Source of the DNA: Caulobacter rhizosphaerae
Lineage (GTDB): Bacteria > Pseudomonadota > Alphaproteobacteria > Caulobacterales > Caulobacteraceae
Assembly (NCBI RefSeq): GCF_010977555.1
Contig: NZ_CP048815.1
Span: 2,968,501 to 3,032,500, forward strand
Direction of reading: 5' to 3'
DNA length: 64,000 nt
Shown: piece after piece, positions 1 to 27,006 of the stretch
Position numbering within the stretch: the stretch's first letter is position 1
How the letters are laid out: each line of letters opens with the position of its first letter
Program-made: the position numbers and the translations under genes
The notes under the pieces: model-generated
Database searches by the model: none
Seen by the model: only the letters and a program-made list of their open reading frames with translations
What the model was told of the DNA's origin: nothing

Positions 1-1344
1 CCGCACCAGCCGCTGGGCTCCGATCCCCTGATGCCGGGCGATCTCGCGCCAGTCGCCATCCCAGACGTCCAGGGCGAACTCGGTCACCCGCAGGCCCAGC
101 GGCAGGTGCTCGCGCAGGCGCACGACGTCGAAGGTCTGCGCCTGCGGCAAGGTGAGGGTCAGCTCAGGCGTCGCCGCGCCCTCGTCGCAGGCCCAGTAGG
201 TATCCCGCACGCCGTCCAGCACGTTGGCGGCGGCATGTCCGACGCGGGCGTTTCTGGCCTGGGCCCTGCCCCCGTCCGCGAGATTGCGGGCGAACAACTC
301 GCGCCGGGCCTTGCCCCAGGCGGTCAAGGCGGCGACGTCCTCGTCGGGAATGCGGCCTCGGCGATCTGGCGGCAGGTTGAGCAGCAGGTTCGCGCCGCGG
401 CCGACGGACTCGAAATAGATCTTCTGCAGCCGTCCTGCGGACTTCACCTCGGCGTCCTCGTAGGCGTGCCAGAACCAGCCCGGACGGATAGACACGTCCA
501 CCTCGGCCGGCCACCACACCGACCCGCCGCGCACGCCGCTAGCGCCCTTGGCCTCGGTATAGGGCCCATCGTCCATCGTCGCCCAGCACGGATCGCCGGC
601 GAAGCCGCGCTCGTTGCCCACCCAGCGCAGGTCGGCGCCCTTGGGGTCGAAGGTCACGGCCATGGGTTGCAACTCATGGACGAAGGCGACGATCGAGGGC
701 CAGTTGTAATAGTTGGGCCCGATCTTTCGAACCTCGCGGGCCCCGCCGTAATAGCCGTCCCCGCCATTGGCCCCGTCGAACCACACCTCGAACAGCGTTC
801 CGTATTGGGTCAGGAGCTCGCGCAGCTGGTTGCGATAGTAGGTGACGTATTCCGGCCGGCCGTAGTCCGCGTGATTGCGATCCCAGGGCGACAGATAGAG
901 GCCGAACTTCAATCCGCCGCGCGCGCAAGCCTCGGACATCTCCCGGACGATGTCGCCCTTGCCGCCCTTGTAGGGGCTGTTCTTGATGCTGTGCTCGGTG
1001 AAGCGACTTGGCCACAGGCAAAAGCCGTCGTGGTGCTTGGCCGTCAGGATCAGGGCCTTGAGCCCCCCGGCCTTGGCCGCGGCGACGATCTGGTCGGCGC
1101 TGAAATCGGTCGGGTTGAACAGGGCGGGCGACTCGTCGCCGTAACCCCATTCGCGATCGGTGAAGGTGTTGATCGAGAAATGGACGAAACCGTAGGTCTC
1201 CAGGCCGTGCCAGGCCAGTTGCCGGGCCGACGGCGTCGCGCCGTAGGGCGTTGGTGCAGCGGCGAAGGCCATGCCGGGCAAGGCCGAGGCGGCGGCGCCG
1301 GCCAGCATCAAGCGGCGACGAGATAGATGAAGTTCGGGGCGCAT
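1..1344 (-). CDS. alpha-L-fucosidase, GH29 subfamily B type (3' end cut by window)
   Basis: The minus frame is open from an ATG at 1344 to the window edge (448 codons, no stop seen). The N-terminus carries a twin-arginine signal (SRRRLMLAG, residues 8-16), so periplasmic export is likely. GH29 features are clear: TYGFVHFS and EWGYGDE near residues 50-70, AKHHDGFCLWPS near 102-113, and WFDGANGG with the probable nucleophile Asp190. The EWG and WFDGANG pattern resembles subfamily B enzymes, which prefer alpha-1,3/1,4-linked fucose on branched glycans; this is family knowledge, not shown here. The C-terminal part looks like a discoidin-like sugar-binding domain. It starts 13 bp after the GH67-like gene and is the last visible gene of the operon. 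Confidence 0.9.
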   Translation of the reverse strand, partial: MRPELHLSRRRLMLAGAAASALPGMAFAAAPTPYGATPSARQLAWHGLETYGFVHFSINTFTDREWGYGDESPALFNPTDFSADQIVAAAKAGGLKALILTAKHHDGFCLWPSRFTEHSIKNSPYKGGKGDIVREMSEACARGGLKFGLYLSPWDRNHADYGRPEYVTYYRNQLRELLTQYGTLFEVWFDGANGGDGYYGGAREVRKIGPNYYNWPSIVAFVHELQPMAVTFDPKGADLRWVGNERGFAGDPCWATMDDGPYTEAKGASGVRGGSVWWPAEVDVSIRPGWFWHAYEDAEVKSAGRLQKIYFESVGRGANLLLNLPPDRRGRIPDEDVAALTAWGKARRELFARNLADGGRAQARNARVGHAAANVLDGVRDTYWACDEGAATPELTLTLPQAQTFDVVRLREHLPLGLRVTEFALDVWDGDWREIARHQGIGAQRLVR

Positions 1345-1357
1345 CGATCGGCTCCGG

Positions 1358-3784
1358 TCAGGGGGAAACAGAGGAAGAAACGGGATCGGGGATCAGCCAG
1401 ACCTCGGCCACCTGGTGGCCGCGACCGCCCCCGCCGACACCGGGCGGGCGCGTCCAGTCCAGGCGTAGCTGGCCCGACCGCATGACCTCGGGCGGAACAG
1501 CCAGCTCGACCGTCATCGGATTGGTGGCGCGCGGCAGCGGCGGATGCAGTTCGACGCCATTGGCCGTCAGGCGCATGGGCAGTTGGTAGTCCTCACCGGC
1601 GTAGGTGGCGCGCAGCCGCCACGTCCGCTTCGGATCGAGGTCTCGATAGACCAGAGTAATCGGCCGGTCGTAGAGCGTCTCGGCATAGGTTGTCCAAGCT
1701 CCGCGCCAGCCGTCGTCCGGGACCTTGTCGGCGACGCCGTCGATGGCGCTCTCCAGCATCTGAGGATCGCGATCGAAGCCGAGGCCGCGCACCAGATGCG
1801 GTTCGCGATCCGGGTCACCGAGGTCGTCGTACAGGCCCCCCTGCCCGGTCATCGCCGGATCCGCGATCTTGGCCAGCCGCGTCCGGCGCTCGGCTTCGTC
1901 CGCCAGCGCACGGACGTCGGCGAACTGGCGGGTCAGCCAGATCCGGTCGTTCAGCGAGACGTCTACCCGGTCGAGATTGGCGCCGCGCTCGATCGCCGAG
2001 GCGCCGTAGCGCTGGACGCTGAGCTGCAGGCCGGCATGAGTGTAGAGTCGTCCCGCCAGCTCGAACAGCCGGCCGCGCAGGACCAGGGCTTCCGCCGTGT
2101 CCGGTTCGGCCAGGGCGTGTTCGGCCTGAGCCAGGGCGGCCTCTGCTCCAGTCGTGGAGACCTGCGCGAGCGCCGCCATCGCCGCGGCCTGCCGCGCCGC
2201 CTCGGCCCGCGACCGCGCACGAACCCAGGCGTCATAGACCGCCCGGTAGAGCGCGGACTCGAACCGCCAGTTCGCGCGCTGGATTGGCGAGGCGCTTCGC
2301 TCCAGGCCGTCGAACAGGGTCAGGGTGGCGTCGATCCCGGCGTTGCCGGCCGCCTTGCCCGACCAGTTGCGTTCCAGCGCCATCACGCCGTCGGCGAACC
2401 GGTCGCTGGACTGAACACCAATGCGCGGACCGAGGAACACGCGGACGTAGTCGCCCAGCACTTCACGCGGCTCGACTTGCGGCGACCAGCCCAGCTGAAA
2501 CCACAGCGTCATGTTGACGTCGTCGTTCACCCCCTCCGAATAGGTCACCGCCCCGGTGTTCAGCGCCGCGAAATGGCGGAAGATCGTGGCCTGACCCAGA
2601 GGACGGGGATTGATCGGCTCGCGCCCCTCGGTGATCGCGAAGGCGGGATCCCACTCCGGAACCGGAAATTGGGCGTGCATCGTGTGGCCGATGTCGGGAT
2701 AGAACTGGATCGGATAGCGGGCCGGGATCCGCCGGCGCTGCACGGCCATGGGATCGCGGGTCTGGGGGCCGAAGAACACGCCGGCCAGCCAGCCGGGTCC
2801 GCGCGCCAGTTGGGCGTAGAACGCCTCGCTCTCCGCTTGGTCGAACCCTTGCGCCGATAGCCACACCCTGGCTCCGGGGTGGACGCGCGCCAGCACGCCC
2901 GCCTCCTGCTCGACCAGGGGAAACAGCTTGTCCGGCGGCGTGTGTCCGGGATCGCCGCCCGGGACGTACAGCGCGTCAACCTTCGGCAGCCGGCGAACCA
3001 AAGCCTCGAAGGCCTTCAGCTCCGCCGCCACGGCGTCCGGGTCACCGTAGTCCTTGGCCAACTGCGGATAGTAGAGCGCAAAGTCCAGGCCGTAGCGCTC
3101 GGCCAGGGCCGACAGGCCGACGATCGTCTCCAGCGCCGGCGCTGGGAACAGCGGGCTGGTCGCCGCGTCGTCCGACAGCGGCGCGATGACCTGAATCGTG
3201 TTGCCGCCGAAGATCGCGATGTCGCGCACGCGGCGCTCGAACATCGTCAGTGTCCAGGCGTCGTAGCTGTTGTTCTTGAAGCGATAGCCAATCTGCACGC
3301 CGCGGACGGCCTGCACCGGCGCGGTGTCGATCGCCAAGGCGCTGGGGGCCACCACCCTCCCCGACTCCATCTCCAGCTTGCGCAACAGCCAGCCGACGCC
3401 GAACAGTCGCCCGCGCGGCGTTTCAGCCGCCACGACCAGCGCCGTCCGTGACCCGGCGCGCAGGCTTCGTACCGAGAACCCTTCCGGCGTCCGGGCCGCG
3501 CTCCCGGCGGGATTGGCTCGCCACGTCGCTCGCAAGGCTATGGGCAACAGCCCCTCGATCGCATCGGGCCGCGCCACGATCACCAATGGCGCCTTGGCGT
3601 CAGAACCCGCTCCCCAGGGCCGTTCGAGGCGCGAAGCGATCTCCTCGGCCAGGAAGCGCGCCGCCATCGTCGATTCCGCGCTGGTCTGGACCAGCCGCGC
3701 GCGCGTCAGGTCCTCGGCTTGCGCCGCCGCGGCCGCGCTGGCGGCCAGCATGGCCAATCCCAACGCGAGGCGGCGCGGCTTCAC
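1358..3784 (-). CDS. GH67-like secreted glycoside hydrolase of unassigned family
   Basis: 808 residues starting at a GTG that overlaps the TGA of the GH92 gene (GTGA). A Sec-type signal peptide ends near AAAAAQA. Residues about 25-160 resemble the N-terminal alpha/beta domain shared by GH67 alpha-glucuronidases and GH20 domain 2 (PRGRLFGVGWLLRKLE). A central TIM-barrel-like part follows (RGVQIGYRFKNNSYD, ALYVPGGDPGHTPP, YSEGVNDDVN), then a helical region and a C-terminal beta-rich domain. The canonical GH67 or GH20 catalytic signatures are not evident, so family and substrate are unknown. Its place between GH92 and GH29 in an N-glycan-type operon suggests a step in the same pathway, perhaps on a linkage the other enzymes miss. 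Endo-acting GH163-like activity is an alternative I could not confirm. Confidence 0.75.
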   Translation of the reverse strand: MKPRRLALGLAMLAASAAAAAQAEDLTRARLVQTSAESTMAARFLAEEIASRLERPWGAGSDAKAPLVIVARPDAIEGLLPIALRATWRANPAGSAARTPEGFSVRSLRAGSRTALVVAAETPRGRLFGVGWLLRKLEMESGRVVAPSALAIDTAPVQAVRGVQIGYRFKNNSYDAWTLTMFERRVRDIAIFGGNTIQVIAPLSDDAATSPLFPAPALETIVGLSALAERYGLDFALYYPQLAKDYGDPDAVAAELKAFEALVRRLPKVDALYVPGGDPGHTPPDKLFPLVEQEAGVLARVHPGARVWLSAQGFDQAESEAFYAQLARGPGWLAGVFFGPQTRDPMAVQRRRIPARYPIQFYPDIGHTMHAQFPVPEWDPAFAITEGREPINPRPLGQATIFRHFAALNTGAVTYSEGVNDDVNMTLWFQLGWSPQVEPREVLGDYVRVFLGPRIGVQSSDRFADGVMALERNWSGKAAGNAGIDATLTLFDGLERSASPIQRANWRFESALYRAVYDAWVRARSRAEAARQAAAMAALAQVSTTGAEAALAQAEHALAEPDTAEALVLRGRLFELAGRLYTHAGLQLSVQRYGASAIERGANLDRVDVSLNDRIWLTRQFADVRALADEAERRTRLAKIADPAMTGQGGLYDDLGDPDREPHLVRGLGFDRDPQMLESAIDGVADKVPDDGWRGAWTTYAETLYDRPITLVYRDLDPKRTWRLRATYAGEDYQLPMRLTANGVELHPPLPRATNPMTVELAVPPEVMRSGQLRLDWTRPPGVGGGGRGHQVAEVWLIPDPVSSSVSP

Positions 3785-6108
3785 GCGAACTTCGGCGTCG
3801 AGGGCGGACGAGACGACCGCGCCGCGCCGAACGCCGGGTTCGGCCGCTCGCCCATCTGAAACACCAGCCGCCCGCCCTTGGCCAGTTCGTCGTGGCCGAT
3901 CCAGCAGCGGTCGTGCGCCGCGCCGTTCCAGGTCATGGACTGGATGTAGAAGCGGTCCGGCGCGACGCCCTTGGCCTCGATCACCAGCTTCCGCCCCTGC
4001 CCCACCGCGATCTCGGCCCGCGGGAACAGCGGCGAGCCGAACACATAGGCGCCCATCACCGGGTCGACCGGATAGAGGCCCAGGGCGCTCATCACGTACC
4101 AGGCGCTCATCTGGCCGCAGTCCTCGTTGCCCGACAGGCCGTCTGGCTTGGCCTGGTACTGGCTCTTGAGCAGCATCCGGACCTGGGCCTGGGTCTTATG
4201 GTGGGCGCCGCAATAGGCGTAGAGGTAAGCCACGTGGTGGCAGGGCTCGTTACCGTGCGCGTACTGGCCGACCAGGCCGGCGATGTCGGGCGGCGAGCCC
4301 GGCGGCATCTCCGAGCTGGCGGTGAACAGCGCGTCGAGCTTGGCCTCCAACCCCTTCTCGCCGCCGAACAGCTCCATGTAGGCGTAAAGGTCGTGCTGGG
4401 TCAGGAACGTCGCTTGCCAGGCGTTGGCCTCGGTGAAGTCGCGCCACTTCTCCATGTGGCCGATGGCGCGCGGCTCGAACGGCGTCACCCAGGAGCCGTC
4501 GGCGTTGCGCGGCCGCATGAACTGGGTCGAGGCGTCGAACTGGTTACGGTAGTTGCGTGAGCGCTCCAGCAGGGCCTTGGCGTCGTTGTGGGCCCCGGCC
4601 GCGGCGGCGAGATGCGCCATGGCCCAGTCGTCATAGGCGTATTCCAGAGTGCGGCTGGCGCCTTCCATGACCTCGTCGACCGGAATGAAGCCCAGGCGCT
4701 TGTACCAGTCCAGGCCCAGTACATCGTCGTCGAAGGCGCGTTTGCGGAACGCCTTCCAGGTGCGGGCCGCATCCAGGCCGCCCAGCCCTTTGCCCTGCGC
4801 CTCGGCCAGCACGACGGCTGCGTGCCAACCGTTCATGGTGCCGGTCTCGATCCCCTGCAGCGGCCAGACCGACGGTCCCTTGGGACTTTCCTCGGCCATC
4901 GGCACGAGACCGGCGACCACATCGGCGGCCCGATCCGGCTGGGCCAGGGTCAGCAGTGGATGCAGCGTCCTATAGGTGTCCCACAGGGAATAGGTGCTGT
5001 AGTTGCGGCGGCCGGCCGGGACCTTGTGGTCCTTCTGGTCCATGCCGCGATAACGGCCGTCCACGTCGCTGAACAGGGTCGGCGCCAGCAGGCTGTGATA
5101 GAGGCCGGTGTAGAAGATCTTCGCGTCGGTCTCGGGCGCGTCGTCGATGCGGATCGAGGACAGCGCCTTCTCCCAGGTCGCGCGCGCGGAGCGCCGCACG
5201 CCGTCGAAGTCCCAGCCGGGAACCTCGGCCTGGAGATTGGCCAACGCGCCTTCAATGTCGACGCCGGACAGGCCGACCTTGACGAGCAGCGGCATTTTGC
5301 CGGCGTCGGGATAGCGCAGCACGCATTTGAGGTTCTCGCCCTTGGCCTCGCGCGCGTCGGCAGCCAGCGGCTGGTCAGCGGCGTAGAGCTGGGCGTCCTT
5401 GAACGGCCGAGACAGCTTCAGGGCGAAATAGATCCAGCGCCCGGGCGCCCACTGGAACACTTGGCGGGCCCCGACCAACGTGTCGTCGCCGACTAGGCGC
5501 AGACTGGCGTTCTTGATCCGGGTCTCGGGCGACTTCTCCCACCAGTCTTTCTGGCCATGCTGCAGGTCGATCAGCAGGTGCCCGGGCTCGTCCTTGGGAA
5601 AGGTATAGCGGTGCAGGCCCACCCGCTCGGTGACGGTCAGTTCGGCGTCGATCCGCGTGTCGGTCAGGCGAACCTTGTAGTAGCCCGGCGAGGCATGCTC
5701 GCTGGCGCGGTCGTATCGCGAGCGATAGCCGTCGTCGGGCTTGCCGGGCTCGCCAGGCGTCAGCAGCACCGGGCCGGTGGCGGGGACCACCAGCACGTCT
5801 AGCAGGTCGGCGCAGCCCGTTCCGCTGAGGTGGGTGTGCGAGAAGCCCATGATCGAGCCGTCCTGCTGGTGATAGCCCGAGCAGGAATCCCAGCCGTTGT
5901 TGCTGGTGTCCGGGCTCAGTTGCACCATGCCGAACGGCAGGGCCGCGCCCGGATAGGTGTGGCCGTGACCGCCAGTGCCGATGAACGGGTCGACGAAGTC
6001 GCACAGCGACTTGCGCGGCGCCGAACGGGCGGGCGCGGCCGCGGCGAGCCCGGCGAGCCCGGCTCCGGCCATCAGGGCGCGACGATCGAGGGTGGGAACT
6101 TGGGTCAT
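3781..6108 (-). CDS. GH92 alpha-mannosidase
   Basis: 775 residues, a normal length for GH92, with the ATG in a 4-bp ATGA overlap with GH125. The N-terminus has a Tat signal (DRRALMAGAG, residues 8-17). Family landmarks are all present: FIGTGGHGHTYPGA, PFGMVQLSPDT and GFSHTHLSGTGC in the N-terminal beta-sandwich domain; GNEPCHHVAYLY and GNEDCGQMSAWYV in the (alpha/alpha)6 domain. GH92 enzymes are calcium-dependent inverting exo-alpha-mannosidases of N-glycans. In the Xanthomonas N-glycan system the GH92 enzyme removes the alpha-1,3 mannose first; the same role is inferred here. The linkage preference cannot be read from the sequence. Confidence 0.95.
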   Translation of the reverse strand: MTQVPTLDRRALMAGAGLAGLAAAAPARSAPRKSLCDFVDPFIGTGGHGHTYPGAALPFGMVQLSPDTSNNGWDSCSGYHQQDGSIMGFSHTHLSGTGCADLLDVLVVPATGPVLLTPGEPGKPDDGYRSRYDRASEHASPGYYKVRLTDTRIDAELTVTERVGLHRYTFPKDEPGHLLIDLQHGQKDWWEKSPETRIKNASLRLVGDDTLVGARQVFQWAPGRWIYFALKLSRPFKDAQLYAADQPLAADAREAKGENLKCVLRYPDAGKMPLLVKVGLSGVDIEGALANLQAEVPGWDFDGVRRSARATWEKALSSIRIDDAPETDAKIFYTGLYHSLLAPTLFSDVDGRYRGMDQKDHKVPAGRRNYSTYSLWDTYRTLHPLLTLAQPDRAADVVAGLVPMAEESPKGPSVWPLQGIETGTMNGWHAAVVLAEAQGKGLGGLDAARTWKAFRKRAFDDDVLGLDWYKRLGFIPVDEVMEGASRTLEYAYDDWAMAHLAAAAGAHNDAKALLERSRNYRNQFDASTQFMRPRNADGSWVTPFEPRAIGHMEKWRDFTEANAWQATFLTQHDLYAYMELFGGEKGLEAKLDALFTASSEMPPGSPPDIAGLVGQYAHGNEPCHHVAYLYAYCGAHHKTQAQVRMLLKSQYQAKPDGLSGNEDCGQMSAWYVMSALGLYPVDPVMGAYVFGSPLFPRAEIAVGQGRKLVIEAKGVAPDRFYIQSMTWNGAAHDRCWIGHDELAKGGRLVFQMGERPNPAFGAARSSRPPSTPKFA

Positions 6109-7556
6109 GCGGTCGGGTCCAGGGGGCGGGCCAGCAGGGCGGGCCGGCGGTCGGCGATCTCGACGATCAGCTCGCCGAACAGGGTGTTGGCCCAGGCGAA
6201 CCAGTCACGGGTGAACTTGGTCGGGTCGTCCTTGTGGAAGGCCTCGTGCATGAAGCCCGTGCCGGCGTGGGTGGCCTTCAGGGTCCGCAACGAGGCCAGG
6301 ACCGTGGCGTCGTCGCCGTCGGCCAGGGCGTTCAGCGCCCGCATGATGATCGACATCGGCCAGATCAGGTCCAGACCCGCGTGGGGACCCCCGACCCCCT
6401 CCGCCGCCGCGCCCTTGAAGAAGTAGGGGTTACGCTCGCTCCATGCCAAGCGGGCGGTGCGGCGGAACACCGGGTCGTCGTGCGGAACGCAGCCCAGATA
6501 GGCCAGGCTCAGCAGGCCAGGTGCGTTGGCGTCGTCCATGAAGGCGGCATTGCCAAACCCATCGACCTCGAACGCCCAGACCGGCTGGCCATCGGCGTCG
6601 CGCGTCAGGCCGTGGGCCTGCAGCGCCGCTGTCACCTCGTCGGCGAAGGCGACGCAGTCCGCGGCGAAGGCGGTGTCGTTGAGCACCTCCGTCGCCAGTT
6701 CCGCCAGTTGCCGCAAGCTGGCGGCGGCGAACAGGTTGGACGGGATCAGGAACGGATAGACGCAGGCGTCGTCGGACGGCCGGAACATCGAATGGATCAG
6801 CCCGACCTTGCGGGTCGGCGCGCCCTTGCCTTCCAGCATCAGGGTCTCGGTCGCCAGGGTGCTGGGTCGCTGGAAGCTGTAGGGACCGGGGCCGGTCTTG
6901 CGTTGCTGCTCGCGGAAGGTGCGCACCACCACGGCCATGGCCCTGCGCCACTCGGTGTCGAATGGCGCCGGGTCACGGGTCGCGCGCCAGTAGCCGTGCG
7001 CCAGGCGGATCGGATAGCAGAGGCTGTCGACCTCCCATTTTCGTTCGCCGACGCCGGGTCGCATCTCGGTGACGTCCTGCTGCGACCACTTCAGGTTCGT
7101 CCGCGCCGTCGGGTCGTGCATATAGGCGTTGGCGTAGGGGTCGATCAGGATGCAGCGGGCCTGCCGGCCGATCACGCCCCGGAACAGGGTCCGCAACTCG
7201 GGCGCCTTGGCGGCCAGCGGCAGGTAGGGCCAGACCTGGGCCGAGGAATCACGCAGCCACATGCAGTCGATGTCGCCGGTGATCACGAAAGCGTCCGGCT
7301 TGCCGCCGGCTTCGCCGAGGAAGACCGTGGTGTCCAGGGTGTTGGGGAAACAGTTCTCGAACAGCCAGGCCAGCTCGGGGTCGGCGACCTTGGCCTTCAC
7401 GCGCTTGATAAGGGCCTCGACCGCTGGACTGGCGAAGCGCCGAGCCTCGACCGGAGGCCGGTGCGAGATGAACGGGGCTGCCTTCGCCGGCGTGGCGGCC
7501 AGGGCCGCGGCCGCGCCGGCCAGCAGGGCCTGGCGACGGGAGAGACTGAGACTCAT
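6105..7556 (-). CDS. GH125 exo-alpha-1,6-mannosidase
   Basis: 483 residues with a Tat signal (SRRQALLAG, residues 6-14) and a cleavage region ATPAKAAP. The GH125 hallmark ITGDIDCMWLRDSSAQVWPYL lies at about residues 92-112, followed by PSDDACVYPFLIPSN and EVDGFGNAAFMDDAN. GH125 enzymes are inverting exo-alpha-1,6-mannosidases acting on N-glycan core mannose. The start ATG overlaps the GH3 stop (ATGA) and its own stop overlaps the GH92 start, so GH3, GH125 and GH92 are probably translationally coupled. In the related Xanthomonas pathway this enzyme acts after GH92 and GH3. Confidence 0.94.
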   Translation of the reverse strand: MSLSLSRRQALLAGAAAALAATPAKAAPFISHRPPVEARRFASPAVEALIKRVKAKVADPELAWLFENCFPNTLDTTVFLGEAGGKPDAFVITGDIDCMWLRDSSAQVWPYLPLAAKAPELRTLFRGVIGRQARCILIDPYANAYMHDPTARTNLKWSQQDVTEMRPGVGERKWEVDSLCYPIRLAHGYWRATRDPAPFDTEWRRAMAVVVRTFREQQRKTGPGPYSFQRPSTLATETLMLEGKGAPTRKVGLIHSMFRPSDDACVYPFLIPSNLFAAASLRQLAELATEVLNDTAFAADCVAFADEVTAALQAHGLTRDADGQPVWAFEVDGFGNAAFMDDANAPGLLSLAYLGCVPHDDPVFRRTARLAWSERNPYFFKGAAAEGVGGPHAGLDLIWPMSIIMRALNALADGDDATVLASLRTLKATHAGTGFMHEAFHKDDPTKFTRDWFAWANTLFGELIVEIADRRPALLARPLDPTA

Positions 7557-15180: not shown

Positions 15181-16254
15181 TTAGCGCTTGACCACGGGAA
15201 GGACGTCCCAGACGGCGGGATCCTCGGACCCCAGCACCCAGGCGCTGAACCCGGCCAGGCCCTGTTGCTTGACCACCTCGTAGCGGGCCTTGAAGCTGCG
15301 GGCGTCCGGCATCGACACCCACTCGTTCATCTGGTCGCGGTAGAGCACGTACCAGCTTTCCTTCTGGACCTCGTCCCACTGGACCTTCACGCCGTATTCA
15401 CGCGCCATCGGCATGGACTCGTCTGCGTCGAAATAGACGCCGCTGATGTTGACGGCTTCAGTCCCGTCGGGGCGCACCGGATTGTCGGCGAACCAGCGGT
15501 AGCCGTAGAGCGGGATGCCCAGCGAGATCTTCTCGCGCGGGATCACCTTCAGGGCGTAGTCGAGGTTCTCCATCACCCAGGGCATGCCGCCGACCGGGCC
15601 TGGCGGGGTCCAGCGCGTGTGCTGGTCATAGGTCATCAGGCTGACCTCGTCGGCGATCTTGCCCAAGGCCTCGATGTCATAGGCGCCGCGCCAGTATTCC
15701 CACATCCACTTGGAATAGGCGCCCTTGCCCGGATGGCCGGGGGCGTTGGGCACGACGGCCACGCCCATGGTGAAGCCGGCGGCGTGCAGGGCGTCGGCGG
15801 TCTGCTTGGCCATCAGGGTAAAGGCGTCGCGGTCCAGATAGCTGATGTTCTCGAAGTCGAAGTGGAAGCCGACATAGCCGTTGGCCTTGGCCTCACGAAC
15901 CAGGGCCTCGATCATCGCCTTCTTGGCCGCCTCGTTCTGCATCAGCTGGTGCAGGCCGGCGCGGTCGGTCAGCGAGATGATCGGCATCACCGGCAGGCGC
16001 GCGGCCTTGGCCTTGGCCAGGATCCCCGGATTGGGGGCTCCAGTGACCAGGCCGTCCTTGGACACCCCGTACCAGGTCGGCACCAGCAGGCCGATCTTGT
16101 CGATATGCTGCTCGAAGGAGCGCGTCGATTTGGGCGTTTCCATCAAATAGAACAGCGCCACGGGCTGGGTGGCCTGGCCCTGGGCCTGGGCTGCGCCGGC
16201 AAAAGCGGTCCCCAAGGCGGCGGCGAGAAGTACGCGGGTCAGGATGCGGCGCAT
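15181..16254 (-). CDS. GH18 glycosidase, probable endo-beta-N-acetylglucosaminidase or chitobiase
   Basis: 357 residues from the ATG at 16254; the reading frame stays open far upstream inside the GH29 gene, but a signal peptide (MRRILTRVLLAAALGTAFAG) marks this start. The GH18 barrel carries the DxE catalytic element in GFHFDFENI (Asp133, Glu135), plus SLMTYDQHTRW and GIPLYGYRW, as in compact YaaH-like GH18 proteins. In this operon the expected substrate is the GlcNAc-beta-1,4-GlcNAc core of an N-glycan, but a chitinase-like activity cannot be excluded. The catalytic pair is intact although the usual first Asp of DxxDxDxE is replaced. Confidence 0.88.
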   Translation of the reverse strand: MRRILTRVLLAAALGTAFAGAAQAQGQATQPVALFYLMETPKSTRSFEQHIDKIGLLVPTWYGVSKDGLVTGAPNPGILAKAKAARLPVMPIISLTDRAGLHQLMQNEAAKKAMIEALVREAKANGYVGFHFDFENISYLDRDAFTLMAKQTADALHAAGFTMGVAVVPNAPGHPGKGAYSKWMWEYWRGAYDIEALGKIADEVSLMTYDQHTRWTPPGPVGGMPWVMENLDYALKVIPREKISLGIPLYGYRWFADNPVRPDGTEAVNISGVYFDADESMPMAREYGVKVQWDEVQKESWYVLYRDQMNEWVSMPDARSFKARYEVVKQQGLAGFSAWVLGSEDPAVWDVLPVVKR

Positions 16255-20086: not shown

Positions 20087-20103
20087 CCCCACTCCCTATC
20101 GTT

Positions 20104-20281: not shown

Positions 20282-22951
20282 CTACATCTTGTAGGCGAAG
20301 CTCAGGGCCAGCACGCGACCGTTCTTGTAGAAGGCGGTCGGGGCGTCCTTGGTGCCGCTGTACGAATAGTAGGTTTCATCCAGCAGGTTCTGGGCGTTCA
20401 GGTTCAGCGACATGCGGTCGGTGAACTTGTATGAGGCCGAGAAGTCGAGCTGGTTGTATCCGTCGGTGCTGTCTTTCGAATTCAAACGACCAATGCCGGT
20501 GAAATACGAAGAGCGGTAGTTGTAGCTAAGACGCGCTTGGAACGGTCCCTTCTCGTAGTAGGGAATGACGTTGACCGTGTACTTCGACAGGAACGGCATG
20601 TTGTAGTCCTGGACCTCCGCTTCCGAGTAGGAAACGTTGGTCTGGATGCCGAAGCCCCAGGGCAGATCGCTCTGGAACGACACGAGCAGGCCGCTGACCT
20701 TGGCGTCCTGCGCATTGATCGGCAGCGTGACGCTATAGGTCTCGGTTTTCTGGGTATTCGGATTGAACAGCTGCATGTCGGTGGTCTTGGACACGACATA
20801 GGAGCTGATGTCGCGATGGAAGACTTCCGCCGAGAGCATGGCGCCCGGCGCGAAGTACCATTCGGCCGACAATTCGAGGTTCAGCGCCTCATAGGGCTTC
20901 AGGTCGGGATTGCCGCCGCCCGCCGTGTGCTGGTTGTCATCCCGGCTGAACGCCCCGGCCAGTTGGCCGTAGCGGGGCCGAGCGACGACCTGGGCCGCGG
21001 CGCCGCGCACCACCACGTTGTCCCCAAGCGCGTAAGCCACGTTCAACGACGGCAAGAACTTGTTGTATTCGTTCATGGTCTTTGCCGGCACATAGGTATT
21101 GCCGTTGTCGTTGCTCAGCCAGTAACGCGAGTCGTCGTTGGTGTTGACGAAGCGGCCACCGATATTGCCCCGCCAGCCGTTTTGCTCGAAGTCGCCCTGC
21201 ACGTAGGCGGCCGCGATGCTTTCGTCGACCTTGAAGCTGGCCCCATAGTCGGTGCTGTAGAACGAGTACTTCCGCGCCTTCAGCAGACGGATAACCTCTT
21301 CCTTCGGAATGGTCGTGAACTGAGTGGCGTTGCCGGTAGCGCCCAGACCGCTGAACAGGTCCGCCGGCGTGGTGATCGTCTTAATATCGGCGAGGCTGAA
21401 CGGCGTGTCCGAATAGTCGGACGTGCCGGCCGAGGATTCCTCATTGCTGTGGTCGGAGTACTTCAAGCCGAACCGGATCTTGGTGAAAGGCCCCCACTCA
21501 ACATCGCGCTTGAAGTCGACTTGGCCGTAAGCCTCTTCATCCGAGGTCACGCCGGTATAGACACCGCCGAGTTGGAAACCTGTGAACGTCTGGCCGTTGC
21601 GGTTGACGGTGCCGTTCTTGCGGCTGGCGAAGGTGCCCGGGGTGCTCGGATCGGAGGTATAGTTGACCACCGTGTTCTTGCCGTCGAAGGCATAGGTGAA
21701 GCCTGCGCTGGTCATCGCCGAGAACAGGTATTCGGGATCCTTGCCGCCCGTAGCCTTGGTGTAGCCGACGTCGGCGTGGATGTCCCACGCGCCAGGCTTC
21801 CAGTTGGCGGCGAAGTTCAGGCTGTCGTTCTTGATCGTCGTCTTGCGGTAGTTCGTGTCAAGCTGGGCGGTGTCGCCGTTCGACTTGGGACCGAAAACGC
21901 CCTGGGTCATCAGGCCGTTATTGACCGTGGCCGCCTGAAGGGTGGTCGGCGTCCAGACCGCGACCGAATATTCCGACTGGCTGTAGTTGTTGTACTTGCC
22001 GTCGATGTGCAGGCCGGTGACCAGGAACTCCAGATCATCCGTCGGCTTGTACTGCACGGCGCCCGAAAGGCCGATCCGCTCGCGCGTCTGGTCGAAGTAG
22101 GCGAAGTTGATGCAGCACGGCAGGCGCGAGGCGCGCAGGGTGGCCAGGCTGGCGTTGGTCGGCGCCGCACCGTTGATCGTCGGGCCGCCCGTTACGTTGC
22201 CGCTGGCGTCATAGGTGAAGGCGCTGTCGAAGCTGTCGCCGCCGCTGTAGCCGAAATATTCGACGCCAGCGCGGGTCAGGTGCTGCTTGTCATAGGTGGC
22301 TCCCAGCAAGATGCCGAGGCTGCCGGTGCTGTTCTTCCAACTATAGAGACCCGAGGCGCGGGCATTGCCCTTCTCGGAACGATCGTTGTAGGCGTAGCCG
22401 AGCGAGCCTGAGAAGGTGTTGGCGTCCAGGTCCAGCGGCTTGCGCGTGTGGACGATGACAGTGCCGCCCAGGCTGCCTTCATCGATCCGGGCTTCCGGCG
22501 ACTTGAAGACCTCGGCGCGGGCGACGATCTCGGGCGCCAGCAGCGAATAGTTGAAGCTGCGGCTTGAGCGATCGGACGGGTTGCCGCCCCAATCGGCCGA
22601 GGCGATGCTGTGACCGTCGACCAGGATGCGGTTCAGCGCCGGGTCGGTGCCGTGGATGGCGACCCGCTCACCTTCGCCGAACTGGTGGTCGACGCTGACG
22701 CCCGGCACGTGAGCCAGAGCTTCGGCGACGTTGCGGTCGGGGAACTTGCCCACGCCATCGGCGGTGATGACGTCGACCACGGCGTTGGCCTCGCGCTTGA
22801 CCTGGATCGACTTCTTCAGGCTCTCGCGCAGGCCGGTGACGACCACTTCGTCGACCGTCGTCGCCCCGCTGGCCGTCTGAGCCGACGCTGCGCCGGCCAT
22901 GAACACGCCCGCCAGCGCGGTCGTCAGCAGAATATGTGCTTTGAGGCTCAT
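20282..22951 (-). CDS. TonB-dependent outer-membrane receptor (glycan uptake)
   Basis: 889 residues from the ATG at 22951, which follows GGGGAGGGGA at 6 nt and opens a signal peptide (MSLKAHILLTTALAGVFMAG). A TonB-box-like TTVDEVVVTG lies just after cleavage. The plug has GKFPDRNVAEALAHVPGV and EARIDEGSLGGTVIVHTRKPLD; the remainder is a 22-strand-type barrel ending in LSFAYKM. This is the style of Caulobacter and Xanthomonas receptors for oligosaccharides. With the neighbouring glycosidases, uptake of N-glycan fragments or glycopeptides is the likely function. It is divergent from gntR and has its own terminator. Confidence 0.93.
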   Translation of the reverse strand: MSLKAHILLTTALAGVFMAGAASAQTASGATTVDEVVVTGLRESLKKSIQVKREANAVVDVITADGVGKFPDRNVAEALAHVPGVSVDHQFGEGERVAIHGTDPALNRILVDGHSIASADWGGNPSDRSSRSFNYSLLAPEIVARAEVFKSPEARIDEGSLGGTVIVHTRKPLDLDANTFSGSLGYAYNDRSEKGNARASGLYSWKNSTGSLGILLGATYDKQHLTRAGVEYFGYSGGDSFDSAFTYDASGNVTGGPTINGAAPTNASLATLRASRLPCCINFAYFDQTRERIGLSGAVQYKPTDDLEFLVTGLHIDGKYNNYSQSEYSVAVWTPTTLQAATVNNGLMTQGVFGPKSNGDTAQLDTNYRKTTIKNDSLNFAANWKPGAWDIHADVGYTKATGGKDPEYLFSAMTSAGFTYAFDGKNTVVNYTSDPSTPGTFASRKNGTVNRNGQTFTGFQLGGVYTGVTSDEEAYGQVDFKRDVEWGPFTKIRFGLKYSDHSNEESSAGTSDYSDTPFSLADIKTITTPADLFSGLGATGNATQFTTIPKEEVIRLLKARKYSFYSTDYGASFKVDESIAAAYVQGDFEQNGWRGNIGGRFVNTNDDSRYWLSNDNGNTYVPAKTMNEYNKFLPSLNVAYALGDNVVVRGAAAQVVARPRYGQLAGAFSRDDNQHTAGGGNPDLKPYEALNLELSAEWYFAPGAMLSAEVFHRDISSYVVSKTTDMQLFNPNTQKTETYSVTLPINAQDAKVSGLLVSFQSDLPWGFGIQTNVSYSEAEVQDYNMPFLSKYTVNVIPYYEKGPFQARLSYNYRSSYFTGIGRLNSKDSTDGYNQLDFSASYKFTDRMSLNLNAQNLLDETYYSYSGTKDAPTAFYKNGRVLALSFAYKM

Positions 22952-23065: not shown

Positions 23066-23077
23066 GATGCGAGCCTG

Positions 23078-23107
23078 AGCCTACGTTTGGGCTCCCACCT
23101 TCGTCAA
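23078..23107 (-). promoter_or_regulatory. possible promoter of the TonB receptor gene
   Basis: On the minus strand TTGACG (23107-23102) and TAGGCT (23083-23078) are separated by 18 bp. The -10 match is weak. The predicted start would fall just upstream of the heptamer repeats, a sensible place for repression. Confidence 0.3.
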
Positions 23108-23323
23108 TTAGTAAATTAAATTTCATATATAATTCTGAAATGGCCACAGAGGCGTAGTCCTTTAGAATGATCACGACCCACGTATATGGTTGTAGAAAAA
23201 GAGGATTTTTAGGGACCGCGCCACGCAAAGGTCCACGACCGGCCATGGTGGACTGCCCAATTTGGACAGGGCCAGCCGTGGTAATTAAAGCAAATTGATG
23301 TTAGTTAGCCATTGGGCTGAAAA

Positions 23324-23353
23324 TGGTCTCATAGGTGGTATGCGCTTGGTTGA
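23324..23353 (+). promoter_or_regulatory. probable GntR operator: three tandem heptamers before gntR
   Basis: TGGTCTC (23324-23330), TGGTATG (23336-23342) and TGGTTGA (23347-23353) repeat with 12 and 11 bp periods; a weaker copy, TGGGCTG, lies 11 bp earlier at 23313. They are about 100-125 bp upstream of the gntR start, suggesting autoregulation. The same heptamer family lies before the divergent receptor gene. Confidence 0.55.
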
Positions 23354-23449
23354 TCACTCCAGGACGTCCCGCGTGATCCCCGGCTCTCGCCCGCCTCCCT
23401 GAAGGGGCAGGTCATTTATTCCCTTCCGGCCGCTTGAGACCTCGCTCCC

Positions 23450-24211
23450 ATGAAAGACCTAGGTAATCCCATGTCCTTCTCCGACATCGTGGGCCGGCTT
23501 GAGATTGAAGACACGACGCCGCTTTATCTTCAGCTGCAGCGCGTCGTGCGAAACGCGATCAAGCGTAACGTGTTGACGCCGGACGTCGCCATTCCGCCCG
23601 AACGGGACCTGGCCGAGGAATACGCCGTTTCACGCATCACCGTGCGCAAGGCGCTCGGCGGCCTGGTGGACGAAGGTCTTCTCAGCCGCCGTCGAGGCGC
23701 CGGCACCTTCGTCACCGGTCGGGTCGAGAAGAGCTTCTCTAAGCTGTCTTCGTTTTCAGAGGACATGCTGTCTCGCGGGCGCCGCCCACACAGCGCCTGG
23801 ATCAACCGCTCGCTCGGCGCCGTGACCCCCGAGGAATCGCTTTCGCTCGTCCTGTCTCCCGGGGCGCCGGTCTATCGATTCCACCGGATCCGCTACGCCG
23901 ACGACTCGCCTATGGCCCTGGAATATTCGACCATCCCGGCCTACTGCCTGCCGTCGCTCGATGCGGTGGAGGACTCCCTTTATGAAGCCCTGCACAAGGC
24001 CGGCTATCGACCTGTGAGGGCCTTGCAGCGCCTCCGCGCCGTCACGTTCACCAGGGAGCAGGCCGAGACGCTGGGTGTCCGTCCGGGCGACGCAGGGTTG
24101 CTGATCGAACGACGCGGCTTCCTGCCGGACGGCCGCGCGGCGGAGTTCACCCAGTCCTACTATCGCGGCGACGCCTATGACGTGGTCGCCGAGCTCAACC
24201 ACAATCTCTAG
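23450..24211 (+). CDS. GntR/HutC-family transcriptional regulator (UTRA domain)
   Basis: 253 residues from ATG 23450; a second in-frame ATG at 23471 is also possible and neither has a strong ribosome site. Residues about 24-90 form the GntR winged helix (PPERDLAEEYAVSRITVRKAL, RRRGAGTFV). The rest is a UTRA ligand domain (YRFHRIRYADDSPMALE, YEALHKAGYRP, AGLLIERRGF). This family includes repressors that sense amino-sugar phosphates, such as NagR of Bacillus and NagQ of Xanthomonas. Control of the two receptor genes and perhaps the glycosidases by GlcNAc-6-phosphate is inferred from context. Confidence 0.92.
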   Translation: MKDLGNPMSFSDIVGRLEIEDTTPLYLQLQRVVRNAIKRNVLTPDVAIPPERDLAEEYAVSRITVRKALGGLVDEGLLSRRRGAGTFVTGRVEKSFSKLSSFSEDMLSRGRRPHSAWINRSLGAVTPEESLSLVLSPGAPVYRFHRIRYADDSPMALEYSTIPAYCLPSLDAVEDSLYEALHKAGYRPVRALQRLRAVTFTREQAETLGVRPGDAGLLIERRGFLPDGRAAEFTQSYYRGDAYDVVAELNHNL

Positions 24212-24282
24212 GGCGGCCCGGAGCCGCAAAGGCTGCCCGAAGGGTTCTTCGAACGGCCTTGCCCAGCGTCCTTCGCAAACGC

Positions 24283-27006
24283 CTAGAACTGCATGTTGGC
24301 GCCCACGAACACCGTCCGTCCGCTGGTGGTGTCGTTCCACAGCCGGTGGGCGCCGGTCGCGCCGAACCCGTTATTGTAGCTGTTGTACTGGGACTCGCGC
24401 TCGTTGGAGAGGTTCACGGCGTCAAGCGTCAGGCGTATCCCCGGCGTCAGCTGATAGAAGGCCGCCGCGTCGATATAGGTTGTCGCCTTGAAGCCGCCGC
24501 TGTCGATCGTGTACTCCGAACGATAGTTGGAGGAGATCCGCGCGCCCCACTTCGCCGTCTCGTAGTAGAGCGTGACGTTGTGGTTCAGGTCGGACATCCC
24601 GTAGATCGCGCCCTTCTGGGGCTTGCCGTTGACGAGGTTGGTCGTCTCGGAGTCGATGAAGGTGACGTTGGCGACGACACCCATGTTCTTGAATGGACCC
24701 GGCAGGAAGAAGAAATCGCTCTGGGCGCTGAGTTCCAGGCCGGTCAGCGTGGCCTCGTTGAGGTTCACCGACCGGGTGTAGGACGATACGATCGTCGACC
24801 CGGTGACGCCCGGGTACAGGCCTTCGGCCAGGCCGGTGCTGGCGTAGGTGACATTGTTGACGGTCTGGCTGCTGACCAGGCCGTCGATCTTCTTGTGGAA
24901 GACGCCAGCGGTCAGCATGCCGATGCTGCCGAAGTACCATTCGGCCGACAGGTCGAACTCGTCGGAGGTGTAGGGGTTGAGGTTGGGATTGCCGGTCGAC
25001 ACCGTCACGCTGGTCCCGTCGACGCTGATCGTTCCGTTCATCGCATAGGCGGCCAGCGAGGGACGGTTGATGTTCTGGGCTGCGGCGGCTCGGATCTGGA
25101 ACTGGTCTGATACTTCCAACACGGCGTTGAAGGCTGGCAGCACGCCGGAATAGGTCTTCTTGGCCTCGGTCGGCGTGTTGACGCCCTTGACCGCCATGAC
25201 GCCAGACGAGATCAAGTCGGTGTCATAGGCCCGCAGGCCGGCGTTCCCCCGTACGGGCCTGCCAAACAAGATGGTCTTCCAGTCCAGCTGGAGATAGCCG
25301 GCCTGGGTGTCCTCCTCGACCTGGTAGATCGCCTTGGGCGCGCCGAAGGTGCGGGTAACCCCGTAGAAGGCCAGAGCCTTGTCGAAGTCGACGTTCACCC
25401 AGGACTGGTCGTGGTGCTTGTCGAAGATCGTGTAGTAACTGGTGACGTGATCATCCAGCGTGCCCTTTTCCCAGGCCGTCTTGTTCACGTCATCGTTGGT
25501 CTGGGTGTAACCCGAGTTCTCGAAGCCGCGATACGAAACGCCCGCCTTCAAGGTCAAGGCGCCGTTCAATTCCCAAGCTGCGTTCAGCTCACCGTTCTTC
25601 AAGTCGGTGCTCTGATAGCTGGCCGAGAAGTCGATCTCGTGGGCCCGGTAGCTGTTCGGATCGGTGGTGTTCCACTTGTAGGTGTTGTGGCCTGCGTCGC
25701 CGCGATAGTCGGTGATCAGCCCGCCGAACGCCTCGGTGTAGAACTTGTCCGAGATAGGAATGTCGTAATCCGACGTCTCCTGACCGATATGACCGTCGAC
25801 CGTCAGGCGGTCGGTGGGCTTCCACTCGCCGGTCAGCACCAACTGATCGAACGTGTTCCTGGTCTGCTGGCGACGGGTCTCGGTGGCGAAGACAGTGTTG
25901 TCGACATCCGCGTAAACGATCGTGTTGTACTTGTCGTACTGGATCGAGTTCAGCACCGGCGGGGGACTGACCAGGTTGCCTGAGTGAGGGGTGGCTGCGC
26001 CCAGGATGGTCGAGTTCAGGGTGGCGCGGGTGGCCAGACTGTTCTCGTCCCTGTCGTTGGTGAACTTGCCGTGCAGGGCGTCGAGAGTCAGGGTGAGGTT
26101 CTCGACCGGACGCCATTGCAGCGCGGCCGTCACGCCAAGGCGCTCCTGGTCCGAGCCCCAGACGGTCAGTCGGTTGCCGCGCTGGAAGATCAACTCGCCA
26201 TTAATGGCCTTGGCCTGGTCGGCCGCGCTGAGATTGACGACATTGGCGGCGAGGGCCTTGGTCGTGGGGGCGGCGTAGGTGTTGTAACCCTGCTCCTGGG
26301 TCTTGCGCTTGGAATAGGCCACTGAGACGAGGACGCCGAATTTGTCGTCCCAGTTCCTGCTGAACATCGCCGCGCCGCGCGGCTGGAAGTCCTTGGTCGC
26401 CGAGTTGGTGCCGCCCTGCAGGGACAGGGCGGCCTTGGTTCCCGAATAGTCGAACGGCTTGGCGGTATAGAGGCCCACCGTGCCGGCCATGCCGCCTTCG
26501 TCCTGCTCGGCCGAGAACGACTTCCGTATGTCGACCTTCGAAAACAGCTCCGAGGCGAAGATGTTGAAGTCGAACGCCCGATCCCGCGAGGTCTGGCCGC
26601 GGCTGTCCATCGGCGAATCGACGTTGCCCAGCACCTCCATGCCGTTCAGCTGCACACGGGTGAAGTCAGGGCCCAGGCCGCGCAAGCTGACTCGACGCCC
26701 CTCGCCGCCTTCCCGGTTGATGGCCACGCCCGGCAGGCGCTGCAGCGACTCGGCAAGGTTGAGGTCGGGGAACTTGGCCATGTCCTCGGCGACGATCACG
26801 TCGGCGACAATGGCGCTGTCCTTCTTGGCCAAGCGCGCCGCGCCCAGCGACTTGCGGAAGCCCTGAACGACCACTTCGTCGACGGCGTTGTCGGCCGGGG
26901 AAGCCGCCGGCGCGACGTCGGCCGCCTCGGCCGAGCCGGCGGACAGGACCGTGACGAGGACGCCGGCCGCGGCGCTCATGACCAGCGCCTTCTTGATTGG
27001 TGACAT
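24283..27006 (-). CDS. TonB-dependent outer-membrane receptor (second, glycan locus)
   Basis: 907 residues from ATG 27006, where a signal peptide begins (MSPIKKALVMSAAAGVLVTVL); the frame is open 53 codons further upstream without signal features. The TonB box region is NAVDEVVVQG. The plug has AKFPDLNLAESLQRLPGVAINR and GLGPDFTRVQLNGMEV, the barrel ends in VFVGANMQF with a terminal Phe. It is of the same class as the other receptor but only distantly similar, so it may take a different fragment or peptide-linked glycan. It converges with gntR (71 bp gap, no clear terminator). Confidence 0.92.
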   Translation of the reverse strand: MSPIKKALVMSAAAGVLVTVLSAGSAEAADVAPAASPADNAVDEVVVQGFRKSLGAARLAKKDSAIVADVIVAEDMAKFPDLNLAESLQRLPGVAINREGGEGRRVSLRGLGPDFTRVQLNGMEVLGNVDSPMDSRGQTSRDRAFDFNIFASELFSKVDIRKSFSAEQDEGGMAGTVGLYTAKPFDYSGTKAALSLQGGTNSATKDFQPRGAAMFSRNWDDKFGVLVSVAYSKRKTQEQGYNTYAAPTTKALAANVVNLSAADQAKAINGELIFQRGNRLTVWGSDQERLGVTAALQWRPVENLTLTLDALHGKFTNDRDENSLATRATLNSTILGAATPHSGNLVSPPPVLNSIQYDKYNTIVYADVDNTVFATETRRQQTRNTFDQLVLTGEWKPTDRLTVDGHIGQETSDYDIPISDKFYTEAFGGLITDYRGDAGHNTYKWNTTDPNSYRAHEIDFSASYQSTDLKNGELNAAWELNGALTLKAGVSYRGFENSGYTQTNDDVNKTAWEKGTLDDHVTSYYTIFDKHHDQSWVNVDFDKALAFYGVTRTFGAPKAIYQVEEDTQAGYLQLDWKTILFGRPVRGNAGLRAYDTDLISSGVMAVKGVNTPTEAKKTYSGVLPAFNAVLEVSDQFQIRAAAAQNINRPSLAAYAMNGTISVDGTSVTVSTGNPNLNPYTSDEFDLSAEWYFGSIGMLTAGVFHKKIDGLVSSQTVNNVTYASTGLAEGLYPGVTGSTIVSSYTRSVNLNEATLTGLELSAQSDFFFLPGPFKNMGVVANVTFIDSETTNLVNGKPQKGAIYGMSDLNHNVTLYYETAKWGARISSNYRSEYTIDSGGFKATTYIDAAAFYQLTPGIRLTLDAVNLSNERESQYNSYNNGFGATGAHRLWNDTTSGRTVFVGANMQF

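Follow-up and report, generated by a model that had tools for sequence, protein, structure and literature searches.

A predicted nix-type operon for plant-type N-glycans in Caulobacter rhizosphaerae, with a candidate glycosidase of a new family

Introduction

Which glycans does the glycosidase cluster in the first 27,006 positions of this stretch of the Caulobacter rhizosphaerae genome serve, and how does it relate to the nix system of Xanthomonas? The window analyzed comprised 64,000 nucleotides of contig NZ_CP048815.1 (positions 2,968,501 to 3,032,500), and a preliminary description had read positions 1 to 27,006 as a complete locus for the degradation of plant-type N-glycans. In Xanthomonadaceae, the nix genes are regarded as phytopathogen-enriched or plant-associated and as dampening plant immunity (extracts of PMC5700972 and PMC6718126), and relatives are also noted from several phyla that include plant and soil bacteria (extracts of PMC5700972).

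Gene Content and Order

The following features were located in the window (coordinates, strand, description):

1..1344, minus strand, GH29 no. 2, likely a GH29-B type alpha-1,3/4-fucosidase (PF01120)
3784-1358, minus strand, 808-aa protein (UNK), "GH67-like" in the preliminary description; predicted glycosidase fold, signal-peptide-like N-terminus
3781..6108, minus strand, GH92, predicted alpha-1,3-mannosidase, NixK position (PF07971/PF17678)
6105..7556, minus strand, GH125, predicted alpha-1,6-mannosidase, NixJ position (PF06824, 523 bits)
7553..10183, minus strand, GH3 with a PA14 insert, predicted beta-xylosidase, NixI position (PF00933/PF01915/PF07691)
10190..12829, minus strand, GH2, predicted beta-mannosidase, NixH position (Pfam; start inferred, longest frame from 12937)
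12856..15177, minus strand, GH20, predicted beta-N-acetylhexosaminidase, NixG position (PF00728, 395 bits; HVGGDE motif)
15181..16254, minus strand, GH18, NixF-like (PF00704; FDFE motif; start inferred)
16284..17936, minus strand, GH29 no. 1, predicted core alpha-1,3-fucosidase, NixE position (PF01120, 348 bits; PDB 7ljj, 418 bits)
17933..20092, minus strand, GH2, candidate beta-galactosidase in the place of NixL (PF02836/02837/00703)
20282..22951, minus strand, TonB-dependent receptor 1, NixD position (PF00593/PF07715; TIGR01782, 659 bits; start inferred)
23101..23134, no strand, AT-rich and conserved, lies upstream of receptor 1 and may be an operator, nearly unchanged in 4/4 intergenic regions (coordinates worked out from alignment offsets)
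23450..24211, plus strand, GntR/UTRA regulator, divergent from the operon (PF00392/PF07702)
24283..27006, minus strand, TonB-dependent receptor 2 (Pfam)

The ten minus-strand glycosidase genes overlap or nearly abut, with gaps between neighbors of -4 to +29 bp (using the inferred starts of GH18 at 16254 and of the GH2 beta-mannosidase at 12829), and form one operon. The collinear run of ten glycosidase genes in the preliminary description was thus borne out, nine of them by Pfam families above gathering cut-offs (from the receptor end to base 1: GH2, GH29, GH18, GH20, GH2, GH3, GH125, GH92, and GH29); the tenth, "GH67-like," matched neither Pfam nor NCBIfam and retained remote kinship alone. 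Catalytic motifs were found in all nine assigned enzymes, those of both GH2 genes being partly read by eye. Both GH29 genes contained PF01120 together with the nucleophile Asp and the acid/base Glu at what we take to be their catalytic positions. The claim of completeness within positions 1 to 27,006 did not hold: a PNGase A gene lies outside. GH29 no. 2 is truncated by the window start (the entire gene encodes 691 aa, ends at L005:17769, and carries PF01120 over its full length).

In Xanthomonas, the tabulated nix order is TonB receptor, fucosidase, NixF glycosyl hydrolase, hexosaminidase, beta-mannosidase, GH3-type, NixJ, and alpha-mannosidase (Table 2 of PMC6718126, in extract). The Caulobacter order was TonB receptor, GH29, GH18, GH20, GH2, GH3, GH125, and GH92, which is the nix-type order with one extra GH2 between the receptor and GH29, the comparison being with the published table (PMC6718126, in extract) rather than with Xanthomonas DNA. 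It is not plausible that seven families share this order by chance. The GH numbers of NixI, NixJ, NixK, and NixL (GH35) reportedly go back to work by Dupoiron in 2015. Of the nixE-nixL parallel previously proposed, the stretch from nixE to nixK (GH29 to GH92) matched, whereas the GH35 beta-galactosidase with which the nix cluster ends (NixL) was absent by Pfam from the ten window genes; a GH2 may stand in. The Caulobacter cluster further differs from the nix cluster in having this GH2 at the operon head, UNK and a second GH29 at the tail, and a PNGase A module alongside. In X. citri, additional genes separate nixI from nixJ (extracts of PMC5700972), whereas the Caulobacter window has none at this point. 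These sequence comparisons support an N-glycan operon in nixE-nixK order.

Individual Enzymes and the Nature of the Substrate

The GH92 protein matched best 7zgm (607 bits), a plant N-glycan alpha-1,3-mannosidase, followed by 6f8z (551 bits). Of the +1 subsite residues H530/E532/S533 of 7ZGM, placed by H-x-E-S spacing, H and E are kept and S is replaced by K; among 48 related GH92 proteins, H was present in 47 (by eye) and the H-x-E pair in three. The GH125 protein matched 3p2c (522 bits) and retained the acid and base motifs, and the top PDB matches of GH3 (338 bits) were entries titled xylan 1,4-beta-xylosidase. The predicted beta-mannosidase matched the beta-mannosidase 6byc (1177 bits; the match spans residues 64-908 when the long frame is used). 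The first GH2 (17933..20092) showed mixed beta-glucuronidase and beta-galactosidase matches (best 192 bits), and among the relatives of the GH18 protein were those of Xanthomonas albilineans and Xylella fastidiosa, at 58% each. GH29 no. 2 was nearest 8ayr (606 bits), followed by 5k9h (411), 4zrx (368), and the alpha-1,3/4-fucosidase 3ues (357); the GH29 A/B subgroups were assigned from the nearest structures.

Invertebrate N-glycans (of insects, nematodes, or molluscs) could be the target instead of those of plants. Mollusc N-glycans carry xylose, and the enzyme set would suit both sources. Core alpha-1,3-fucose is common to plants and invertebrates (extracts of PMC10154615). However, the GH92 protein is nearest a plant-specific enzyme, the beta-xylosidase-type GH3 and the alpha-1,3/4-fucosidase type fit plant xylose and Lewis a, and eight of 78 related loci came from Sphingomonas "Leaf" isolates. 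An invertebrate target is therefore improbable, and from these sequence matches we infer plant rather than invertebrate glycoproteins.

A PNGase A Module Adjacent to the Operon

The locus extends about 15.5 kb past base 1, where a TonB receptor, an ECF sigma factor with FecR, a TonB receptor, a PNGase A-family gene, a TonB receptor, and a GH3 gene were located. The outermost TonB receptor and this second GH3 were present in two of four Caulobacter genomes (G000 and G091). The PNGase A-family gene scored 191.8 bits with PF12222 (gathering score 25.3), and its single PDB match was PNGase Bb (9vla, 208 bits). It occurred in 7 of 199 host-family genomes, all with a strong GH125 match, and in each of the seven the same contig held a GH125 or UNK gene no more than about 33 kb away. 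Because the PNGase has its own sigma/FecR pair, it could be part of a different regulon.

Bacterial PNGase H+ and the Caulobacter gene have PNGase A homology in common, and PNGase H+ of T. roseus frees core alpha-1,3-fucosylated glycans (extracts of PMC4231336 and PMC7348039). In the same extracts the natural role of PNGase H+ is left open, the authors of PMC4231336 being able only to speculate; the Caulobacter gene, known by sequence, lies beside a whole exo-glycosidase operon.

The plant N-glycan loci of Bacteroides massiliensis share with Caulobacter a PNGase, a GH92 alpha-1,3-mannosidase, a GH3 beta-1,2-xylosidase, GH29 core and antennary fucosidases, a GH2 galactosidase, and GH20 (extracts of PMC9522356; the Caulobacter activities are predicted). 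On the other hand, the B. massiliensis genes are scattered over several loci, some with susC/D, and the PNGase there resembles EMTypeII/PNGase F, whereas that of Caulobacter is of the PNGase A type (PF12222) (extracts of PMC9522356).

Another conceivable target is mannan in general or the fungal cell wall. GH92, GH125, and GH3 occur in mannan degradation too, but two fucosidases, GH20, a NixF-type GH18, a beta-mannosidase, and PNGase A would be out of place in alpha-mannan breakdown, and the gene order is that of nix; a mannan substrate is thus most improbable.

Regulator, Receptors, and Possible Operator

The two TonB receptors and the GntR regulator of the preliminary description were found by Pfam. 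The regulator and receptor 1 were present in 4/4 Caulobacter genomes, the G082 copy of the receptor being only 58% identical. Receptor 2 adjoined the regulator in two of the four (G000 and G091) and is weakly linked to the locus. When the regulator-side copy of the possible operator was used as a pattern over 82.5 kb (up to two mismatches), it matched itself and one site with two mismatches at 29321, against 0, 0, 0, 1, and 0 matches in five shuffles. The idea of a two-copy operator is weak because the receptor-side copy lies beyond the two-mismatch limit.

The 808-aa Protein

The earlier claim that all ten enzymes cover every linkage failed on UNK, to which no linkage is assigned; the standard plant N-glycan structure leaves none over for it. 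UNK had no match in Pfam at E<=0.001, in NCBIfam at E<=0.1, or among PDB sequences, and had 880 relatives at E<=0.001 among 7995 scored. Its AlphaFold model reached a pLDDT of 88.4, and the predicted fold was nearest GH115, GH84, GH67, and GH20, with GH115 as the best match; GH163 was not among the fold matches listed. Like these four families, UNK has an N-terminal domain and a (predicted) TIM barrel, but no family model matches it.

The identification as GH67 was rejected, as the catalytic domain PF07488 was not matched by Pfam, and only remote kinship holds: a single hhalign comparison with a GH67 profile gave E 2.4e-8 and a probability of 95%, and of 120 UNK relatives listed, three carried PF03648, the GH67 N-terminal domain, and one carried PF02838. 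A genuine GH67 lies elsewhere in the genome (C1:3388184-3389143). UNK as a substitute for the GH35 galactosidase was also rejected, both being present in four Asticcacaulis loci and in the genomes G114 and G137.

The active site was mapped with sequence profiles of GH115 (20 sequences), GH84 (3), and GH67 (25), and beyond the N-terminal domain, only the barrel's first half could be aligned confidently. In GH84 and GH20, strand 4 is followed by a catalytic DD or DE pair. The corresponding loop of UNK reads GGDPG (residues 276-280, with D278 and P279 invariant), so that GH20 has GGDE where UNK has GGDP. Further invariant residues of UNK are D364, E389, and E417. D278 lies one residue from what is presumably the strand-4 catalytic Glu of GH67, but the alignment there is of low confidence and too weak for a claim.

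UNK could be a uronidase of the alpha-glucuronidase kind, the operon then also handling uronic acid-bearing glycans found alongside plant glycoproteins (for example, those of arabinogalactan proteins or linked to inositol). Its best fold match, GH115, includes the arabinogalactan-active 5by3, and GH92 genes lie near a true GH115 at two other loci of the same genome. Six non-alphaproteobacterial UNK loci contained MFS carriers, and DHDPS-family aldolases also occurred in such loci (three tested). The three carriers tested were nearest the galactonate type, but with 137-143 bits they scored far under the family cut-off of 395. Moreover, UNK matched neither PF07488 nor the GH115 catalytic domain PF15979, and to our knowledge plant N-glycans carry no uronic acid. 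A uronidase is accordingly unlikely. UNK probably represents a new glycosidase family and plays an accessory part. More tentatively, UNK might found a new glycoside hydrolase family within the GH115/GH67/GH84/GH20 fold group and, in Alphaproteobacteria, remove an N-glycan decoration beyond the known N-glycan enzymes, so that some plant or invertebrate N-glycans would bear a substituent that was overlooked or lacks a known degrading enzyme; this is possible, with the odds somewhat against it.

Distribution in Relatives

UNK was found in 13 of 199 host-family genomes, all of which also contained GH125, and a sister genome harbored the operon without UNK. The UNK profile (A1) matched 25 of the 199, but 12 of these were short matches (18-23 bits, mostly to the N-terminal domain) that were not counted as UNK, at least six of them overlapping GH67 genes. 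An inner stop was reported in 7 of the 13 full-length matches; in G137, the one checked, it was the normal gene end. GH125 gave a strong match in 18 of 199 genomes and a weak nineteenth (47 bits). Class- and phylum-wide searches returned only the genome itself (UNK 1/385, GH125 1/385, GH18 1/398) and were uninformative.

Related sets occurred in Asticcacaulis, Sphingomonas, Sphingobium, Niveispirillum, and others; therefore, the Caulobacter locus is no single exception. The 78 related loci were gathered via UNK and give no measure of how often clusters without it occur, and with flanks of only 10 kb, GH18, GH29 no. 1, and the GH2 at the operon head fall out of view (1, 1, and 0 of 78 loci showed them). 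Additional genes comprised PF01112 (glycosylasparaginase-type, 11 loci), GH35 (4, those bearing it including four from Asticcacaulis), GH84 (3), and GH85 (2), and six Nitrospirillum/Azospirillum loci had added genes fitting GlcNAc catabolism. Among the publication titles listed, none pointed to such a locus in Caulobacter or Sphingomonas.

Proposed Function

Gene content, order, conservation, and the predicted fold are direct observations. Because of the nine family assignments, the PNGase A family, the nixD-nixK order (minus the inserted GH2), the best structure matches, the co-occurrence of PNGase A with GH125 in host-family genomes, and the genes added in related clusters, it is likely that the locus scavenges nutrients from core-fucosylated, core-xylosylated (plant-type) N-glycans. 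Points against this reading are the mixed matches of the first GH2, the partly conserved GH92 subsite, the sigma/FecR pair of the PNGase, and UNK, for which the standard plant structure offers no linkage. The enzyme activities, their order, localization, regulation, and substrate are predictions. The PNGase A-family enzyme would cut glycans off glycoproteins or glycopeptides, TonB receptors would bring them into the periplasm, and exported glycosidases would act there in sequence. The last GH29 would first remove antennary Fuc, followed by the first GH2 (Gal), GH20 (GlcNAc), GH92 (alpha-1,3-Man), GH3 (beta-1,2-Xyl), GH125 (alpha-1,6-Man), the second GH2 (beta-Man), and the first GH29 (core Fuc), and GH18/GH20 would finally split the chitobiose. 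UNK would probably be an accessory exo-glycosidase taking off a further decoration, and the GntR/UTRA protein probably represses the operon until a GlcNAc- or glycan-derived signal arrives.

By sequence, the Caulobacter locus would be a known, nix-type system in a new variant form, with activities that are predicted. Simple nutrition would account for the nix order in Caulobacter and for the similar sets elsewhere in the Alphaproteobacteria. The linked PNGase A suggests a likely natural role for the bacterial PNGase A family, and UNK offers a candidate new enzyme family that can be tested directly.

Gene Organization of the Locus

The window (contig 1, bases 2968501-3032500, of a 5.96-Mb genome in two contigs) harbored an operon of ten minus-strand genes in which neighbors are -4 to +29 bp apart (two of the starts are inferred). 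A TonB receptor stands ahead of the operon, and a GntR/UTRA regulator diverges from this receptor.

Genes in order of transcription
20282-22951 (-), first TonB receptor
(-), first GH2
(-), first GH29
(-), GH18
(-), GH20
(-), second GH2, beta-mannosidase
(-), GH3
(-), GH125
(-), GH92
1358-3784 (-), UNK, an 808-aa protein with a glycosidase-like predicted fold
(-), last GH29, cut by the window start

Genes past the window start
last GH29, full
TonB receptor (+)
ECF sigma factor
FecR
TonB receptor
PNGase A-family protein (PF12222, 191.8 bits; the single PF12222 match in the genome)
TonB receptor
second GH3

Inspection by eye indicated twin-arginine-like signal peptides in the first and last GH29, GH125, and GH92; other N-termini inspected in the operon looked Sec-like. 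An AT-rich element upstream of the first receptor was almost unchanged in all four of four Caulobacter genomes.

Elsewhere in the window, a fusion of a calcium-dependent PI-PLC (PF16670) and a PAP2 phosphatase (27205-28947, +) adjoins the second TonB receptor, and Type VI secretion genes (VasE, DotU-OmpA, IcmF, PP2C, FHA, and a VgrG-like baseplate hub) occupy 49806-61210. A 2023-aa plus-strand frame (30664-36735) opposes a 1141-aa minus-strand frame (33328-36753), for which no Pfam match was found; the AT skew is 0.20 across 32001-36000.

Predicted Specificities of the Assigned Enzymes

Catalytic motifs were found in all nine assigned enzymes. The closest solved structure to GH92 was 7ZGM, a plant N-glycan alpha-1,3-mannosidase (607 bits), followed by 6F8Z (551 bits). 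Three +1 subsite residues are named for 7ZGM; the window enzyme keeps H and E, and S is replaced by K. Where the motif could be located in related GH92s (48 proteins), H was kept in 47 (by eye) and H-x-E in only 3, so the subsite residues are regarded as mild support. The second GH2 matched the beta-mannosidase 6BYC, presumably from X. citri, with 1177 bits. The first GH2 had mixed structure matches (top score, 192 bits). The first GH29 matched 7LJJ (418 bits), which was deposited as an exo-alpha-L-galactosidase and, as 7SNK, an alpha-L-fucosidase; for the last GH29, 8AYR was on top (606 bits), followed by others and the alpha-1,3/4-fucosidase 3UES (357 bits). The top matches of GH3 were beta-xylosidases (338 bits), and GH125 matched 3P2C with 522 bits, exo-alpha-1,6-mannosidase entries scoring 394-396.

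Comparison with the nix Cluster

By ascending locus tag, Table 2 in PMC6718126 gives for X. citri nixD (TonB receptor), nixE (alpha-L-fucosidase), nixF (putative glycosyl hydrolase), nixG (beta-hexosaminidase), nixH (beta-mannosidase), nixI (beta-glucosidase-related), nixJ (putative glycosyl hydrolase), nixK (alpha-mannosidase), and nixL (beta-galactosidase). The order from nixD to nixK recurs in the window, except for a GH2 inserted behind the receptor; X. citri carries additional genes between nixI and nixJ (PMC5700972). NixE has been classed as GH29 subfamily A (PMC10154630), and PMC5700972 already records relatives of NixE, NixF, and NixL in several bacterial phyla, mainly from plants and soil. 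The window GH18 shared 58% identity with X. albilineans and Xylella fastidiosa proteins. In contrast to the nix cluster, the window locus lacked GH35, contained UNK and the last GH29, and adjoined a PNGase A module; the nix-type locus as such is known. Literature searches, whose coverage left out most subscription journals, listed no paper with a title describing a locus of this kind in either Caulobacter or Sphingomonas.

Linkage within the Family

Among 199 sampled genomes of the family, GH125 was found in 19 (18 strong, >400 bits, and one weak), full-length UNK (>1000 bits) in 13, and PF12222 in 7. All 13 UNK genomes contained a strong GH125 (Fisher p ~1e-16, uncorrected for relatedness); the two genes were <7 kb apart on one contig in 11 and on separate contigs in two (G133 and G153). 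A strong GH125 was likewise present in 7/7 PNGase genomes, in each of which a GH125 or UNK gene shares the contig with the PNGase gene and lies no more than ~33 kb from it. Five GH125 genomes lacked UNK (G014, G129, G131, G145, and G194). G194, from the same genus as the window host, harbored the operon from the first receptor through the last GH29, plus a receptor, FecR, a receptor, and PNGase, collinear with the window locus at 79-94% protein identity; just 72 bp separate its GH92 and last GH29 matches at the expected place of UNK. UNK is therefore an optional module. Among other genomes of this genus, G091 has the outermost receptor and the second GH3, and neither was found in the examined stretches of G082 and G194.

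Neighborhoods of UNK

A scan of genome contigs yielded 78 distinct loci from the best 80 of 95 UNK-encoding stretches, and neighbors were scored within about 10 kb using bit cut-offs chosen for this analysis. Within this set, UNK was accompanied most often by GH92 (52 loci), followed by the last GH29 (47), GH3 (40), beta-mannosidase (36), GH125 (30), GH20 (25), and the first receptor (23). PNGase A accompanied it at three loci, GH18 and the first GH29 at a single locus each, and the first GH2 at none. GH92 was near UNK in 51/57 alphaproteobacterial loci vs. 1/21 others (Acidobacteria, Bacteroidota, Hydrogenedentota, and Omnitrophota; our grouping), with L050, a record titled Bacillus sp. 2B10, tallied with Sphingomonas because of its matching neighbors. 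Alphaproteobacterial loci additionally contained PF01112, GH35, GH85, or GH84 genes, all of which suit N-glycans. Outside Alphaproteobacteria, the neighbors were MFS carriers most similar to the galactonate type, DHDPS-family aldolases, and fucose-isomerase-like proteins, with ribulokinase in Pedobacter; given these different neighbors, the ancestral substrate of UNK may have been other than N-glycan.

Six Nitrospirillum/Azospirillum UNK loci (L012, L013, L014, L016, L017, and L040) contained an MFS carrier, a SIS-domain protein, a NagA-type amidohydrolase, two ROK proteins, and a BcrAD-type ATPase (Pfam on one representative each), adjoining UNK, GH29, GH92, and mostly GH125. This is likely a GlcNAc catabolic set.

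Other GH92 Loci and Proposed Function

GH92 lies close to a GH115-fold protein at three loci in the genome, UNK included. A second locus (G000:C1:2345001-2383000; L007 and L006) contained a TonB receptor, two GH92, a branch-2 histidine phosphatase (which we take to be of the phytase type), GH115, a sugar ABC transporter, a GFO/IDH/MocA dehydrogenase, a PfkB+DUF2090 protein (presumably of the IolC type), and NAGLU (GH89). It looks like a system for exploiting an inositol-linked glycan, possibly the head groups of plant GIPCs. Another GH92 is close to GH115 at G000:C1:365001-384900 (L008).

The window locus is established here in its gene content, order, conservation, and predicted fold, and it quite probably functions in plant-type N-glycan catabolism. 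PNGase A would free the glycan, which the TonB receptors would take up for trimming in the periplasm, and the GntR protein may control the locus.
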